Assembly (NCBI GenBank): GCA_016841965.1
Contig: JAEANN010000002.1
Span: forward strand, 1 to 64,000
DNA: 64,000 nt
Reading direction: 5' to 3'
Source: Candidatus Roseilinea mizusawaensis
Lineage (GTDB): Bacteria; Chloroflexota; Anaerolineae; J036; Brachytrichaceae
Shown here: positions 22,900-35,570 of the stretch, piece by piece
Layout of the letters: each line of letters starts with the position of its first letter
Numbering within the stretch: the first letter of the stretch is position 1
Made by a program: the position numbers and the translations under genes
The notes under the pieces: model-generated
What the model was told of the DNA's origin: nothing
The model's input: the letters and a program-made list of their open reading frames with translations, nothing else
Database searches by the model: none

Positions 22900-25800
22900 T
22901 CAGCCCGTGTTGCGCAGGCCGCTGCTCACGCCGTTAATGGTCAGATCGATCACGGCGCGCAGCAGGTCTGTGTCGTCGACGTCATCGGTCGACGCGTGCC
23001 GGCGCAGCCGGCGGATCATCTCTACCTGGATGTAGTTGAGCGGGTCTACGTAGGGGTTGCGCAACTGAATGGAGCGCTGCAACACCGGCTCGTTATCCAG
23101 CAACGCCGTCTGGCCGGTAATGGCGCAAATGGCCCGGCAAGCCCGATCATATTCAGCCTGTATCAAGCCGAAGATGCGCGTGCGCGCCGTCGCATCCTCC
23201 ACCAGCGAGGCATATTGGGCAGCAATGCCCATGTCAGCTTTGGTCAGGCTCTGCTGAGCGTTGTCGATCAACGTCTGAAAGAAGGGCCAGTCGCGATACA
23301 TTTCGCGCAACAGGCCGGCCCCCTCGTAATGCGACGCGCCGGCATCGTGACCATCCAGCGGAATGGCCCCGCCGGCTTGCAGACCTGTGCCCAGCCCATA
23401 CCAGCCCGGCAGCACAAAGCGGCTCTGCATCCAGGAAAACACCCATGGAATGGCGCGCAAGTCGGCCACGCTGCGGGTCTTGCGGCGATAGGCCGGCCGC
23501 GAGCCGATCTTCAGCCCGCTGATTTCGGTGATCGGCGTGGCCTGTTGCCAGAAGGTCAGGAAGTCGGGGTCGTCATACACCAGGGCGCGATAGGCAGCCA
23601 GGCTTGCGGCAGACATGCGCTCCATGCAAGCCCGCCATGCCGGTGGGGTTGGCTTCGGATGGCGCGCTTGATGTATAGCCAACAATGCGCCATACACTAC
23701 CTGCTCCAGATGACGATGCGCGATGTCGGGATCGTGATAGCGCGTGGACAGCACCTCGCCTTGTTCCGTGATGCGAATGCCGCCGTGAATCAACCCCTGC
23801 GGCTGAGCCAGAATTGCGCGCGCCGCCGGCCCGCCGCCGCGCGCAATGGTGCCCCCACGCCCGTGAAACAACGTGAAGGCGATGCCGGCTGCTTCGCAGG
23901 CGCGCGTGATGGTCTCCTGAGCTTTGAAGAGCGCCCAGTTGGCAGTCAGGTAGCCGCAATCCTTGTTGCTGTCCGAGTAGCCCAGCATGATCATCTGATG
24001 ATTGCCGGTCTGTCGCAGATGCTCGCGGTAGTGAGGATGATCGAACATCGCCTTCAGAATGGCCGGCGCGCGAGTGAGGTCGTCCAGTGTCTCAAAGAGC
24101 GGCACAATGCGCATGGTCGCGCTGCACCAGCGCAGCATCAACAGCACTTCCAACACATCCGACAGCCCGTTCGTCATGCTGATGACGTAGACGCCCATGA
24201 CCTCACGTCCATAGCGCCGCATAGTCTCGCGGGCGAGCTGGATCGGCTCGATGACGTTGCGCGTTTCGTCGCTCAGATCACCGGCGCGATCGAGCACGCT
24301 GCGGGCCGGCCTGGACAGCGCCTGACTCAACACAGCGATTTTGTGGGCCTCGTCCAGCGCGGCATACGCGCCGCCGGCCACTTCGAGCAGCGCGCCTTCG
24401 GCCTTGGCCAGCACTTCGGCCACAGCCGGCTCGTGCCAAGCCGAATGCTGGCGCAAATCCAGCCGCGCCATGTGCAGGCCAAACACGTTCAGGCGGTGAC
24501 GCAGTTGCTTGAGCTCGCCATCGACCAACCGCGCAGCGCGCCCCGCGCTCAGGCTGCGCGCCACTACGTCCAGCACCTTGCCCAGATCCCCGGCCGTCAG
24601 GTCTGGTTGGGCCGGCAACGGCAGCGATAGGGTACTGGACAGCGCCACGCTACGCGATTGGGCCAGAGGATAGAGCGGCCGGGTAGAGGTGTGTTGCCAG
24701 GCATCGGCCAGTTGCGCGGCCAGGTCGGCCAGCACCACGCGATAGGGTTCGTTCGGATATCGCTCGGCAAGCGTCTGCACGTGACGCGACGTGAAGCGAC
24801 CGGCGCTGATCAATTCCAGCACTTCCGCCGAGATGCGGTCGCGGCGCTTGGAGATGCTGAGCAAACGCGACAGCTCGTGCACGGCTTCGCGCAGTTTGTC
24901 AAGCGCCAGCCGGCGGTGCAACTGAATCGTCTCGGCCGTGACAGTCACCGTGACGTTAGGATTGCCGTCGCGGTCACCGCCAATCCACGAGCCAAAGGTC
25001 AGCCAACGGGTGGGGGCGCGCACGCCGGGGTAGTGCCGGGCTAGGGCCTGTTCCAAATCATCCTGAAGCCGGGGCAGCGTATCCCACAGTGTGTTGTTGA
25101 AGTACCACAGACCGGTGCGCACTTCATCGGTCACAGCCGGCTGAACCGTGCGTGAACGGTCGGTCAGCCATAGAGCGGTGATCTCGCGGCGCAGCGCTTC
25201 GTTGCTTGAGGTGTGATCGCTGACAAGGGACGATAGGGCGCCGTTTGCGGTATGCACCTCTTGTGCGCGCAGCAACCCGGCGATACGCCGCAAGCGGGTG
25301 AGCACTGTGCGACGCTTGGACTCGGTGGGGTGCGCTGTCAGCACCAGTTCGACATTTAGCCGGTCCAGGATATCCTGCAATTCCGCAGCCGGCAGGCCCT
25401 GCCGCTTCAGCTCAAGAATCGCTGCCTCGATGGATTCGCGCACCGGCGGCTGGCTGTCATCATCCTGCACGTGCAAGCGCGCCGCACGGCGCTGGCGCAG
25501 CCGGCGCGTCCGGTAATCTTCTTCGGCCAAGTTCACCAGCTCGAAGTACGTGGTGAAGGCCATGGCGATCTCGAAAGCATCGCGAGCCGACAGGCCGCCA
25601 ATCACGGCACGCAGTCGCGCCGCCGAATCCATGTCTCCGGCGCGACTGTTCTTGGCAAGTTGCCGCGCCTCTTCCACCAGATCAAAAATGCGCGGTCCTT
25701 CAAGATCGACGATAAGCTTGCCAAGAATGCTGCCCAGCCTGCGAATTTGGGCAGCGAGAAAATCAAGCGTGACCTCGCCCGATAACAAGCCGTGTTCCAT
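22900..25800 (-). CDS. ppc: Phosphoenolpyruvate carboxylase
   Basis: PEP carboxylase makes oxaloacetate from PEP and bicarbonate, refilling the citric acid cycle. The 966-residue length is typical. Key motifs are intact: LTAHPTESKRRT with the catalytic His, SWIGGDRDGNPNVT, GYSDSNKDCGYLTANW, FHGRGGTIARGGGPA, and the C-terminal NTG that closes the active site. An upstream frame of 19 codons exists but ATG 25800 is chosen because homology begins there and a TATACT box lies eight bases before it. The gene diverges from alaX, sharing one palindromic -10 element. Confidence 0.97.
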   Translation of the reverse strand: MEHGLLSGEVTLDFLAAQIRRLGSILGKLIVDLEGPRIFDLVEEARQLAKNSRAGDMDSAARLRAVIGGLSARDAFEIAMAFTTYFELVNLAEEDYRTRRLRQRRAARLHVQDDDSQPPVRESIEAAILELKRQGLPAAELQDILDRLNVELVLTAHPTESKRRTVLTRLRRIAGLLRAQEVHTANGALSSLVSDHTSSNEALRREITALWLTDRSRTVQPAVTDEVRTGLWYFNNTLWDTLPRLQDDLEQALARHYPGVRAPTRWLTFGSWIGGDRDGNPNVTVTVTAETIQLHRRLALDKLREAVHELSRLLSISKRRDRISAEVLELISAGRFTSRHVQTLAERYPNEPYRVVLADLAAQLADAWQHTSTRPLYPLAQSRSVALSSTLSLPLPAQPDLTAGDLGKVLDVVARSLSAGRAARLVDGELKQLRHRLNVFGLHMARLDLRQHSAWHEPAVAEVLAKAEGALLEVAGGAYAALDEAHKIAVLSQALSRPARSVLDRAGDLSDETRNVIEPIQLARETMRRYGREVMGVYVISMTNGLSDVLEVLLMLRWCSATMRIVPLFETLDDLTRAPAILKAMFDHPHYREHLRQTGNHQMIMLGYSDSNKDCGYLTANWALFKAQETITRACEAAGIAFTLFHGRGGTIARGGGPAARAILAQPQGLIHGGIRITEQGEVLSTRYHDPDIAHRHLEQVVYGALLAIHQARHPKPTPPAWRACMERMSAASLAAYRALVYDDPDFLTFWQQATPITEISGLKIGSRPAYRRKTRSVADLRAIPWVFSWMQSRFVLPGWYGLGTGLQAGGAIPLDGHDAGASHYEGAGLLREMYRDWPFFQTLIDNAQQSLTKADMGIAAQYASLVEDATARTRIFGLIQAEYDRACRAICAITGQTALLDNEPVLQRSIQLRNPYVDPLNYIQVEMIRRLRRHASTDDVDDTDLLRAVIDLTINGVSSGLRNTG

Positions 25801-25808
25801 ATCCGGCG

Positions 25809-25816
25809 AGTATACT
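25809..25816. promoter_or_regulatory. Palindromic shared -10 element of divergent leaderless genes
   Basis: The perfect palindrome AGTATACT gives TATACT on both strands. It ends eight bases before the ppc ATG (minus, 25800) and ten bases before the AlaX-type ATG (plus, 25827). The whole space between the two start codons is 26 bp, so both transcripts must be leaderless or nearly so if they start here. Confidence 0.6.
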
Positions 25817-25826
25817 GGGCACCCGT

Positions 25827-27107
25827 ATGACAGTCCGCTTGTACCGCGTCGATCCATTCCTGCGACACTTTTCCGCCCGTGTGACTATGCTTGCGTGGAT
25901 AGAGGGCCGGCCGGCCGTCACGCTCGATCAAACCGCCTTCTATCCGACCTCTGGCGGGCAAGCATTCGACCGGGGCACGTTGGCCGGCGTGGAGGTGATC
26001 GATGTCATCGAGCGTGACAACGGCGAAATTCTACACACGCTGGCGCGTGCGCCTGAATTTAACGTGGGCGATGCGATAGCAGGCGAAATTGATTGGCTGC
26101 GTCGATTCGACCACATGCAACAACACAGCGGCCAGCACGTGTTGTCGGCGGCATTTGCGCGCGTGGCCGGCCTGGACACGCTGTCGGTGCATATGGGTGA
26201 AGACGATTGCACCGTTGATTTGCCGGCTGCCCGCCTGGAGGCGGAACTTGTCCAGCGCGTCGAAGACGCCGCCAATCAAGCCATCTACGACGACCTGCCC
26301 ATTCGCACGCACGAGGTGACCGCCGCTGAACTGCCCGGCATTCCCCTGCGCAAACCGCCCAGCGTGACCGGCTTGATCCGCATCGTCGAAGTGCAGGGGT
26401 TTGACTGGTCTGCCTGTGGCGGAACGCATGTGGCTTCAACCGGCCAGATCGGCATGATTCGCATCCACAAGGTTGAAAAGCGAGGCAGCGAGACGCGCAT
26501 CCACTTTCATTGCGGGCAGCGCGCACTGCGCGATTATCGGCAGGCCAGCGCCGTGGCCGGCGCACTGAGCGACCAATTGCGTGTCAGCCGGCAGGAATTG
26601 CCCCAAGCCGTGCAGCGGCTGTGGCTCGAAGCACAGGCAGCGCGCAAAGCGTTGGCAGATGCTCAGGACAGATTAGCCCAAACAGATGCCATGACCCTCT
26701 TGCGCGACGCCAGAAACGCTGCCGCAGAAGCTGCCGCAGAAGCTGCCGCAGAAGCCGCGCCCATGGTCATCGCGCGCGTGTTGGCAGACCGAGACGCAAC
26801 ACAACTTAAAGCCATTGCCAAACATCTGACAGCCGGGCCGGGCGTAGTGGCACTGCTGGGCGCCCCCGGCGAGAAAGCCAGCCTGTGCTTTGCCCGCTCA
26901 AAAGACGCAGCCGGCGATATGGGCAAACTACTGCGCGAAGCGTTGGCTGCGCTGGGAGCAAAAGGCGGCGGCTCGCCCGACTTCGCGCAGGGTGGCGGCG
27001 TGCCGGCCAGCCCCGAGCAGATTCAGCAAGCTGTGGATCGGACAAGGATCGCAATGCAACACAGTTTAGCCGGCAACACACAATCATCGGGAGTTCAGGA
27101 GCGATGA
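25827..27107 (+). CDS. Alanyl-tRNA editing protein AlaX-type with DHHA1 domain
   Basis: AlaX proteins hydrolyse Ser-tRNA(Ala) or Gly-tRNA(Ala) made by mistake. The 426-residue product has the second-additional-domain/editing core: zinc ligands in HMQQHSGQHVL (HxxxH, about 95-105) and CGGTH (about 193), plus FYPTSGGQ. After a helical linker containing three Ala-Ala-Glu repeats, the C-terminal part (about 310-410) looks like a DHHA1 domain, ending GGSPDFAQGGG. This is the long form of AlaX, resembling the C-terminal half of AlaRS without its catalytic core. The stop codon overlaps the next start codon (ATGA), so the two are translationally coupled. Confidence 0.9.
   Translation: MTVRLYRVDPFLRHFSARVTMLAWIEGRPAVTLDQTAFYPTSGGQAFDRGTLAGVEVIDVIERDNGEILHTLARAPEFNVGDAIAGEIDWLRRFDHMQQHSGQHVLSAAFARVAGLDTLSVHMGEDDCTVDLPAARLEAELVQRVEDAANQAIYDDLPIRTHEVTAAELPGIPLRKPPSVTGLIRIVEVQGFDWSACGGTHVASTGQIGMIRIHKVEKRGSETRIHFHCGQRALRDYRQASAVAGALSDQLRVSRQELPQAVQRLWLEAQAARKALADAQDRLAQTDAMTLLRDARNAAAEAAAEAAAEAAPMVIARVLADRDATQLKAIAKHLTAGPGVVALLGAPGEKASLCFARSKDAAGDMGKLLREALAALGAKGGGSPDFAQGGGVPASPEQIQQAVDRTRIAMQHSLAGNTQSSGVQER
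26718..26753 (+). repeat. 12-bp tandem repeat in the AlaX-type gene, three copies
   Basis: Three copies of GCTGCCGCAGAA, in frame, encode Ala-Ala-Glu-rich helix in the linker before the DHHA1 domain. Confidence 0.85.
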
Positions 27108-28003
27108 AAAAGCTTCAGAAGAACATCTACTATCACACCACCGACAACGGCATCAATCTGGGCTGCGTCATTGGGGACGATGGGGCGGTCAGCATCGACC
27201 TGCCACTGACACCCCAGGAAACCCTTGCCTGGCGCACGGAGATTGCAACCTTGAGCGACAAGCCGCTGCGCGCAGTGATCTTCACCTCGGCTGACCGTGT
27301 GAACAGCGATGCGCTCGGCGCACTAGCGGCGCACCCCGGCCCACTCAGCATCCCGTCGATCATCCACGATGCCGGCTTCGCCCAGCTCTATGCCGAACTT
27401 GAGGCATCGCAACCAAAGTTCCCAGAGCCGCCGACGCCGGCCCAGTTACGCGAGCGCGCCGTGTTGCCGGATATCACATTCACCGATTCAACCACGCTGG
27501 TGGTTGGCTCAACCAATCCCTTGTTCCTGGACATCAAGCACGTAGGCGGCTATTCACCCAGCAGCGCAATCGTCGTTGTGCGCGATACCGGCATTGTGTT
27601 CGCGGGCGATCTGATCACCAACCGAGAGCCGCCGTCGCTCACGCAGAGCAATCTAGAGCATCTGGAACAGTGGAGCGCGGCGCTCAGCGAGTTCAAACGC
27701 AGCCTGAAGGCAGCCAAAATCGTGCCGGGGCGCGGCCCGGTGGCAGACACCCAGGCCATCTCCGAGACGCTGGCTTGGTTGAAGGCAACACGCAACGCGG
27801 TCAACAAGCTGATTCGGAGCCGCAAGACACGGGCAGATGTATTGGCGCTCGTGCCAGAATTGCTGGCGCTGTATGACATCAAGCCGGGCAAGTCACGACG
27901 TGGCGGCCCAGACACAAGCCTTATCCAGCAGCGTGTCTTGCTCAGTCTCGAATCTCTGTTCGATCAACTTAGCCAGGCCGCGAATCAACCTGTTGCAAGC
28001 TAA
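27104..28003 (+). CDS. Metallo-beta-lactamase-fold protein lacking the metal motif
   Basis: This 299-residue protein follows the MBL layout: early strands NGINLGCVIGDDGAVSIDLP, then AVIFTSADRVNSDALGAL exactly where active members have THxHxDHxGG, and later a strand with VVRDTGIVFAGDLI, which keeps the aspartate of GD. A C-terminal helical region follows. The HxHxDH zinc ligands are absent, so hydrolase activity through the usual metals is unlikely. It may bind a ligand or regulate its partner. The ATG overlaps the AlaX-type stop codon by four bases, suggesting a functional link. Confidence 0.7.
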   Translation: MKKLQKNIYYHTTDNGINLGCVIGDDGAVSIDLPLTPQETLAWRTEIATLSDKPLRAVIFTSADRVNSDALGALAAHPGPLSIPSIIHDAGFAQLYAELEASQPKFPEPPTPAQLRERAVLPDITFTDSTTLVVGSTNPLFLDIKHVGGYSPSSAIVVVRDTGIVFAGDLITNREPPSLTQSNLEHLEQWSAALSEFKRSLKAAKIVPGRGPVADTQAISETLAWLKATRNAVNKLIRSRKTRADVLALVPELLALYDIKPGKSRRGGPDTSLIQQRVLLSLESLFDQLSQAANQPVAS

Positions 28004-33605: not shown

Positions 33606-33628
33606 AGGGCAACCGGCTCGGTTGCCCT
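33606..33628. terminator. Hairpin between convergent genes
   Basis: A 10-bp perfect stem (AGGGCAACCG with CGGTTGCCCT, loop GCT) lies between the DUF2089 operon and the convergent beta-CASP gene and touches the latter's stop codon. There is no clear U-tract on either strand. Confidence 0.45.
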
Positions 33629-35027
33629 ACAATTCGAATGAATCTCCGCGCGCGGGAACATGGACGTTTTGCGCGCCCAATGCGCGCATCCCTTCAGCCA
33701 ACGCTTGCGCCGCGCGCTCCTCGCCGTGTACGACAAAGACCCCGCGCAGTTTGTCCACATGTGGCTTCACCCATTGCAACAGGTCGTCGCGGTCGGCGTG
33801 CCCGCTGAAGGCTTCGATGCGCCGCACTTCAGCGCGCACCCGGAAATCATCACCCAGGATACGCACGCGCGGCTCACCATCCAGAATGCGCCGGCCCAGG
33901 GTATGCTCGGCCTGGAAGCTGACAAACAGGATCATGTTCTTGGGATCCTCCAGCGTGTTGCGCAGGTGATGCAAGATGCGCCCGTTCTCGCACATGCCAG
34001 AGGCGCTGATAATGACTGCCGGCCCGCGCAAATGGTTAAGCGCCTTAGACGACTCGACATCGCGGACATAAAACAGCCGCCGAAAACCAAACACATCCCC
34101 GTTGTCCGCTTCGATCAGCAGTTGCCGGGTCTCGCGGTCATAGCATTCCGGGTGCTGACGAAAGATCTCGGTCACATTCACTGCCAGCGGGCTATCGACA
34201 AAGATCGGGACGTCGGGCAACTGTTTATCACGCATCAATTGGTGCAGGCCATAGACTATCTCTTGCGTGCGCCCAACCGCGAAGGCAGGGATGATAACCT
34301 TACCGCCACGCCGGACTGCGTCATCGACAGCCTGGCCCAGTTCCGGCAGCGCGTCTGCGATGGGCGGGTGCGTACGGTCGCCATACGTGCTCTCGATGAT
34401 GAGATAGTCTGCCTCCGGCATCGGACGAGGGTCGCGCAAGATCGGTAGCCCAAAGCGTCCCAGGTCGCCACTAAAACATATCCGCAGGCTGCGGCCGTTT
34501 TCTTGCGCCTCCACCAGCACCCAGGCCGACCCCAACATGTGGCCGGCGTCGCCGAGCCAGGCGCGCAGATTGGCTGTAAGCGCCATCGGCTTGCCATAGT
34601 CGTAGCTGGCAAAGGCATGCAGCGCATCCTCAGCGTCTTCGAGGGTGTAGATGGGTTCGATCGGCGGCAAATCGCCATCCTTGCTGCGACGCTTGTTCAG
34701 GAAGCGCGCGTCTTCCTGCTGGATCATGGCCGAATCGCGCAACATCGCAGCGCACAGATCGCGAGTGGCGTGGGTGCAATATACATGGCCGGCAAAGCCG
34801 CTTTTAACCAGGTTAGGAATGTTGCCGCTGTGGTCAATGTGTGCGTGCGACAAGACAACCGCGTCAATCTGGCCAGCCTCGAATGGCAGATTCTGATTGA
34901 TGGCATAGCTGTCAGAGCGGCGGCCCTGATAGAGACCGCAATCAAGCAGAAGCCGGCTCGACCCGGCTTCCAGAAGATGCTGCGAGCCGGTGACCGTGCG
35001 AGCAGCGCCCCAACACGTAAGCTTCAT
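33627..35027 (-). CDS. MBL-fold beta-CASP RNA nuclease/exonuclease family protein
   Basis: This 466-residue enzyme belongs to the RNA-processing MBL group (CPSF73/YSH1-like). Metal-binding HAHIDHSG is at about 59-66, GHMLGSA supplies a further ligand, and SGDLGR and the C-terminal SGHAD and VHGE motifs complete the active site. Residues 200-390 carry the beta-CASP insert (ESTYGDR, PAFAVGRTQE, SGMCENGRILHHL). It probably degrades or processes RNA. TATACT ends nine bases before the ATG, and the -10 overlaps that of the divergent bifunctional nuclease gene. Confidence 0.92.
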   Translation of the reverse strand: MKLTCWGAARTVTGSQHLLEAGSSRLLLDCGLYQGRRSDSYAINQNLPFEAGQIDAVVLSHAHIDHSGNIPNLVKSGFAGHVYCTHATRDLCAAMLRDSAMIQQEDARFLNKRRSKDGDLPPIEPIYTLEDAEDALHAFASYDYGKPMALTANLRAWLGDAGHMLGSAWVLVEAQENGRSLRICFSGDLGRFGLPILRDPRPMPEADYLIIESTYGDRTHPPIADALPELGQAVDDAVRRGGKVIIPAFAVGRTQEIVYGLHQLMRDKQLPDVPIFVDSPLAVNVTEIFRQHPECYDRETRQLLIEADNGDVFGFRRLFYVRDVESSKALNHLRGPAVIISASGMCENGRILHHLRNTLEDPKNMILFVSFQAEHTLGRRILDGEPRVRILGDDFRVRAEVRRIEAFSGHADRDDLLQWVKPHVDKLRGVFVVHGEERAAQALAEGMRALGAQNVHVPARGDSFEL

Positions 35028-35036
35028 GGTGAGGCG

Positions 35037-35044
35037 AGTATAAT
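35037..35044. promoter_or_regulatory. Shared divergent -10 element
   Basis: AGTATAAT gives TATAAT on the plus strand (35039-35044) and TATACT on the minus strand (35042-35037). The minus gene would be leaderless (nine-base gap); the plus gene would have a leader of about 20 nt with a GGAGG site. Confidence 0.55.
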
Positions 35045-35072
35045 GGCCGCACTGTGGAGGTAAGCAACCAGC

Positions 35073-35570
35073 ATGGAAGGCATGGTTGAGGTCAAAATCG
35101 AGAGCATCCGCGTGAGCCTGATGTCGCAGTATCGGGTTGTGATTCTGAAAGACCTGGCCAGCAATCGCTATCTACCCATCTGGATCGGCCCCTACGAAGC
35201 GGATGCCATCACCATCCACTTGCAAGAGGTTCAGGTCCCGCGTCCGCTCACACACGATCTGATCGTGAAAATCATCGAAGAGTTGGACGCCAAAGTAGAC
35301 TACGTCTATGTTAGCGATTTGAACAACGACACCTTCTATGCTCGCGTCGTCCTCAAGGTGAGAGACCGCGAATTGAGCATTGACTCGCGGCCCAGCGACG
35401 CGGTCGCTATCGCTGTTCGGGTCGAGTGCCCCATCTACGTCAACGAAGAAGTCATGGAACGCGCCGGCGTGACGCCAGAGGAAGAAGGCACGGTCGCCGA
35501 TGAAGACCTGGGCGCGTTCAAAGACTTTATCGGTTCCCTGGACCTGGATGACCTGGACAAGAACCAATAA
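35073..35570 (+). CDS. Bifunctional nuclease family protein (DUF151)
   Basis: This is a 165-residue protein. The first 135 residues match the BFN/DUF151 fold: VEVKIESIRVSLMSQYRVVILKD, YLPIWIGPYEADAI, RPLTHDLI, and SIDSRPSDAVAIAVR. The acidic C-terminus (about 135-165) is variable in the family. Family members from plants and Thermotoga have been linked to RNase/DNase activity; the physiological role in bacteria is unclear. GGAGG lies 12 bases before the start. The divergent neighbour is another nuclease, which may be meaningful. Confidence 0.92.
   Translation: MEGMVEVKIESIRVSLMSQYRVVILKDLASNRYLPIWIGPYEADAITIHLQEVQVPRPLTHDLIVKIIEELDAKVDYVYVSDLNNDTFYARVVLKVRDRELSIDSRPSDAVAIAVRVECPIYVNEEVMERAGVTPEEEGTVADEDLGAFKDFIGSLDLDDLDKNQ

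Follow-up and report, generated by a model that had tools for sequence, protein, structure and literature searches.

The window analysed here, a stretch of 64,000 nucleotides from Candidatus Roseilinea mizusawaensis, contains two divergent genes whose start codons are separated by a putative control region of only 26 bp (positions 25801 to 25826). The gene on the minus strand, ppc (22900..25800), is predicted to be leaderless and encodes a phosphoenolpyruvate carboxylase of 966 amino acids, while the gene on the plus strand (25827..27107), predicted to be leaderless or nearly so, encodes an alanyl-tRNA editing protein of 426 amino acids. These identities had been proposed from the sequence in an earlier note and were confirmed by matches of the ppc product to PF00311 (E value of 1.7e-292) and, above the cut-off, to NF000584, and by the presence of tRNA_SAD (PF07973) and DHHA1 (PF02272) domains in the editing protein. 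The latter scored below the equivalog cut-offs for both AlaXM and AlaS and hence is correctly described as AlaX-type; the gene is termed alaX below. A gene for an MBL-fold protein (27104..28003, plus strand) overlaps the alaX stop codon by 4 bp and is probably present in the same transcript. The starts at 25800 and 25827 were both selected by a gene finder that utilizes a hexamer coding score and is blind to upstream motifs. The start of alaX was fixed by its conserved N-terminus, M(T/A)xRLY, which lines up at the 25827 ATG across most relatives.

The 26-bp gap reads cat-ATCCGGCG-AGTATACT-GGGCACCCGT-atg. At its center, AGTATACT (25809..25816) consists of two overlapping −10 hexamers, with TATACT present at 25811 to 25816 on the plus strand and at 25814 to 25809 on the minus strand, an arrangement of overlapping −10 elements on opposite strands that defines bidirectional promoters. 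Reading of the sequence agreed with the earlier description of this element as an 8-bp palindrome located 10 bp from the ATG of alaX (25827, plus strand) and 8 bp from that of ppc (25800, minus strand). The first T of each hexamer is situated 16 bp before the alaX ATG and 14 bp before the ppc ATG, as is characteristic of the TA-led signals of leaderless genes. The suggestion that no ribosome binding site fits also held, as no Shine-Dalgarno site of the GGAG, GAGG or AGGA type was detected on either strand of the gap. No −35/−10 promoter was found in a scan of positions 25600 to 26100, and an RNA element was rejected as there was no match to an Rfam family within the whole window. Relatives have gaps of 23 and 24 bp, and hence the claim that this is about the smallest possible control region had to be abandoned.

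Leaderless initiation was examined by a gene-level census of a 2.14-Mb portion (∼55%) of the genome, while the pattern search alone covered the whole genome. TAnnnT was detected 6 to 11 bp before 178 start codons as compared to ∼75 expected from more distant upstream positions; for genes with a divergent neighbor, 92 such sites were observed at these spacers against an expectation of ∼29. Shine-Dalgarno sites also exhibited a peak at the usual position in the 2.14 Mb, indicating that two modes of initiation coexist. An alignment of 98 leaderless-type sites produced the consensus TA(T/C)AAT, with C at position 5 in 11%, and exhibited neither a −35 consensus nor general symmetry. The A located two bases before the −10 was not enriched in these 98 sites, and the idea that leaderless promoters generally require symmetry was, therefore, rejected. 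The TAnnnT spacer had a peak at 6 to 7 bp with the 10 bp of alaX falling on the shoulder, such that a leader of 1 to 4 nt is as likely for this gene as none. Leaderless initiation without a −35 element is thus, on these counts, ordinary in the source genome. This agrees with a survey of TA-led leaderless genes, which detected them in 4 of 12 Chloroflexi genomes, at ∼4 to 6% of genes (PMC3160421).

A comparison of three species of the genus (G000 to G002) detected an identical core, CCGGCGAGTATACTGGGC (25803..25820), with 18 of 18 bases conserved, while three-way identities at the four-fold sites of the flanking genes were 34% and 38% in the same species. Within this core, the flanks CCGGCG (25803 to 25808) and GGGC (25817 to 25820) were as invariant in the genus as the −10 element itself, a point that weighs against the promoter reading proposed below. 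Rarity of the palindrome was dropped as evidence, since AGTATACT is not rare: five copies are present in the whole genome, with three in the 2.14 Mb compared to one to five in Markov-2 simulations. The complete layout, CAT-N6-11-AnTATAnT-N6-11-ATG, occurred at two sites in the 2.14 Mb (2, 0, 0, 0, 0, 0, 0 and 0 in eight simulations), and only the alaX/ppc site has predicted genes beginning at both ATGs. There were 224 divergent gene pairs in this region, with a gap of 23 to 30 bp in one and of 0 to 30 bp in three, and alaX/ppc was the only pair with AnTATAnT between both starts. A chance origin of the layout is unlikely on these data, with conservation being a stronger argument against it than the pattern counts.

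AnTATAnT with both ATGs 6 to 10 bp away was detected in eight genomes of three genera, with gaps of 23 to 28 bp. The box was AGTATACT in the three species of the source genus, ACTATAAT in sister genus g8 (G009, G024 and G022) and AATATAAT in sister genus g5 (G006 and G012), with the gap being 23 to 24 bp in the two sister genera. Bases T1, A2, T3, A4 and T6 of the hexamer were kept on both strands in all eight genomes and variation was observed at base 5. In g5 and g8, alaX is divergent from a gene for carboxypeptidase Taq (M32; PF02074), with spacers to the ATG of 7 to 10 bp on the alaX side and 6 to 9 bp on the M32 side, and ppc lies behind the M32 gene on the same strand. This M32 copy is missing in the source genus: there, ppc takes its place next to the promoter, and the sole full-length M32 gene is located elsewhere. 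The direct pairing of ppc and alaX, therefore, appears to stem from gene loss, for which deletion would be the simplest route. One genome of g8, G022, has two copies, ∼2.1 kb apart, of the promoter together with the start of alaX and the first M32 codons (L151, 560-2900); the copies flank a PAS/GAF/HD-domain gene and both have retained ACTATAAT. The earlier note had proposed that the promoter would couple anaplerotic carbon flow to tRNA editing. This proposal was not supported, as it is M32 that is directly opposite alaX in the sister genera, with ppc behind, and the neighbors of alaX differ in other genera.

These comparisons also bear on whether the box serves both genes. It could be utilized by one gene only, probably alaX, with the ppc promoter being inside alaX and the symmetry being incidental. 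TATA is self-complementary, such that a forward TATAnT with one A two bases earlier is also a reverse TATAnT, and in most of the family alaX is likewise preceded by a leaderless −10. Where alaX has no close divergent partner (genus g7 near Candidatus Roseilinea, g3 and G014), a TATAAT- or TACAAT-type box was observed 6 to 8 bp before the ATG, with the forward −10 being kept but the A required for the reverse −10 being missing. The extra A was, however, present in all eight genomes where alaX has a close divergent partner as compared to 1 of ∼11 other leaderless-type alaX promoters, each of these eight genomes has the ATG of the partner at 6 to 10 bp from the reverse −10, and the scan described above provided no −35/−10 promoter for ppc. 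Use of the box by a single gene is, therefore, improbable. The exception among the alaX genes lacking a close partner is G005, which has AATATAAT 7 bp before alaX even though ppc is ∼340 bp away; this two-way box may be a remnant. The alaX-ppc spacer of G005 (L150) also contains a hairpin-like inverted repeat, GAAACACGCTGTTCCTCCTC.

A second alternative is that the palindrome is an operator for a transcription factor, with the promoters located elsewhere or overlaid. A perfect 8-bp palindrome with flanking bases conserved within the genus would fit this alternative, but the dyad ends at 8 bp without any extension, each genome of the genus has a single copy of the longer GGCGAGTATACT, indicating that there is no regulon, and the other copies of AGTATACT that were inspected are not at comparable sites. 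The exact palindrome was, furthermore, lost in g5 and g8 while both −10 hexamers were retained, which is the pattern of a two-way −10 box rather than of an operator whose dyad should be conserved. The operator explanation was rejected on these grounds and is very unlikely. The N-termini of PPC proteins aligned from just past the proposed ATGs (MEHGLLSGEVTLDFL, MGHLIPSGEITLDFL and MAPLAGSSEVTLDFL); in combination with the coding-score finder and the alaX N-terminus, this alignment upheld the start codons at 25800 and 25827. There is hardly any likelihood that the gap is an annotation artefact with the true ppc start inside alaX at 25857, to which in-frame ATG the reading frame is open in the source genome and for which the upstream peptides are alike in G000 and G001, as this likeness is due to antisense overlap with conserved alaX codons, the coding score ends at 25800 and the 28-bp gap of G002 (versus 26 bp) shifts the frame, making the peptide upstream of PPC unrelated and resulting in rejection of this start.

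The same layout was sought across the family. CAT-N6-11-AnTATAnT-N6-11-ATG matched 114 places in 28 family genomes compared to 19 for the reversed pattern, a ratio that is only a guide since the reversed pattern was not dinucleotide-matched and AT-rich genomes supply many of the 114; part of these places fall away from genes. A total of 21 loci (L326 to L346), from patterns other than CATC and CATT, were read. Besides alaX, 8 of the 21 (L329, L333, L335, L336, L342/L343, L344, L345 and L346) had frames of >45 codons from both ATGs, with L333 and L345 being one pair in two genomes and likewise L342 and L343. Pairs that could be named were a CT398-like coiled-coil protein with a GT2 protein and a NUDIX-GNAT protein with a 77-amino-acid protein (each in two genomes), RbsD with a TrmA-like methyltransferase, an MFS protein with an OmpR-type regulator, and RsfS with an ammonium transporter. 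The combination of a shared −10 with two leaderless genes had been termed unusual; this judgement requires softening for the present family, where leaderless genes are common and other such pairs exist.

A second shared −10 is present in the window, with AGTATAAT being located between genes for a beta-CASP nuclease and a bifunctional-nuclease-domain protein (33627 to 35570). The beta-CASP gene (33627 to 35027, minus strand) is of the leaderless type, with TATACT 9 bp from the ATG, while the bifunctional-nuclease-domain gene, starting at 35073 on the plus strand, has the Shine-Dalgarno site GGAGGT. All three species of the genus that were compared retain the AGTATAAT site, and in other genera GAGTATAAT is again located ahead of this gene. 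GGCGAGTATA is found at this second promoter near 35 kb as well as at ppc/alaX. The beta-CASP protein scored 430 bits with the type VII Cas14 model NF045584 and 304 bits with aCPSF1, both below the cut-offs, and is probably a related housekeeping or uncharacterized nuclease.

We consider, with a probability of roughly 83%, that the 26 bp constitute a conserved minimal bidirectional promoter in which one symmetric −10 element serves two predicted leaderless genes. A shared −10 for two divergent leaderless genes was the central claim of the earlier note; at the sequence level, both its conservation and the signal for leaderless genes across the genome support it well. A polymerase with a housekeeping sigma factor (sigma-70 type) would recognize AnTATAnT, here AGTATACT, in either orientation and without a −35 element. 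In one orientation, transcription of alaX would start ∼7 to 11 bp past the −10, at ∼25823 to 25827; in the other, the ppc transcript would have its 5′ end at A25802 to A25800. An optimum of 7 bp would place the starts at ∼25823 and 25802, 21 bp apart, with this distance reaching at most 27 bp if both were at the A of the ATG; the transcripts would more likely begin with one of the purines at 25825, 25827, 25802 and 25800. The 5′ ends of the two mRNAs would thus be at the AUG or within ∼4 nt of it, and both would be translated as leaderless messages. As polymerase could bind in only one orientation at a time, ppc and alaX would share basal promoter access. Bidirectional promoters of Escherichia coli are common and weak, and are mutually exclusive only if strongly activated (PMC12825309; PMC10268837); by analogy, both genes may be expressed basally with little interference. 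Loss of the M32 gene from between the promoter and ppc would have left ppc directly behind the promoter.

A broader proposal, to which we assign somewhat less than an even chance, is that this family repeatedly utilizes a ∼20- to 30-bp AnTATAnT unit with two starts as its smallest two-gene module, in which polymerase exclusion would fix the ratio of the leaderless mRNAs and either gene could be replaced while the promoter stays. The bidirectional promoter described above would join symmetric −10 elements and leaderless mRNAs in a conserved control region of 23 to 28 bp, with translation and transcription starts coinciding on both sides. Since the promoter has been kept while its partner changed from M32 to ppc, selection appears to act on the promoter rather than on a functional pairing. 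Such a control region would be a very simple test bed for the choice of orientation by polymerase and for the evolution of start codons toward an existing transcription start.

The ppc/alaX unit has counterparts in several known systems. In the bidirectional promoters of Warman et al. (2021, Nat Microbiol), as they are presented in PMC10268837 and PMC12825309, one pseudo-symmetric −10 likewise serves both strands, and elements of this symmetric class are located between divergent genes and need no −35. The predicted distance between starts of ∼21 to 27 bp is mostly within the 7- to 25-bp window which, in these accounts, defines the class, whereas the four-base overlap of the present unit (AnTATAnT, 21 bp predicted between starts) differs from the commonest layout of 18 bp. 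Position −18 is G (25805) for a plus-strand start at 25823 rather than T; however, T at −18 is specific to the 18-bp layout and, as the spacing differs here, its absence is compatible with class membership. Divergent pairs that have been tested also have a bidirectional promoter, with start sites 10 to 23 bp apart, but are regulated by activators or repressors, and no such control is indicated at ppc/alaX. The TA-led leaderless genes (PMC3160421) similarly have TAnnnT just before the start codon and no Shine-Dalgarno site, but that survey treats genes singly whereas one signal is predicted to serve two genes here. Both products are predicted to be leaderless in the present case, while the words leaderless and palindrome are absent from PMC12825309, and a literature search found no paper on double-leaderless shared −10 elements. 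By sequence, the ppc/alaX unit belongs with the symmetric −10 bidirectional promoters as a variant of them, the new features being the predicted lack of a leader on both products and the conservation of the unit even though one partner gene has changed.
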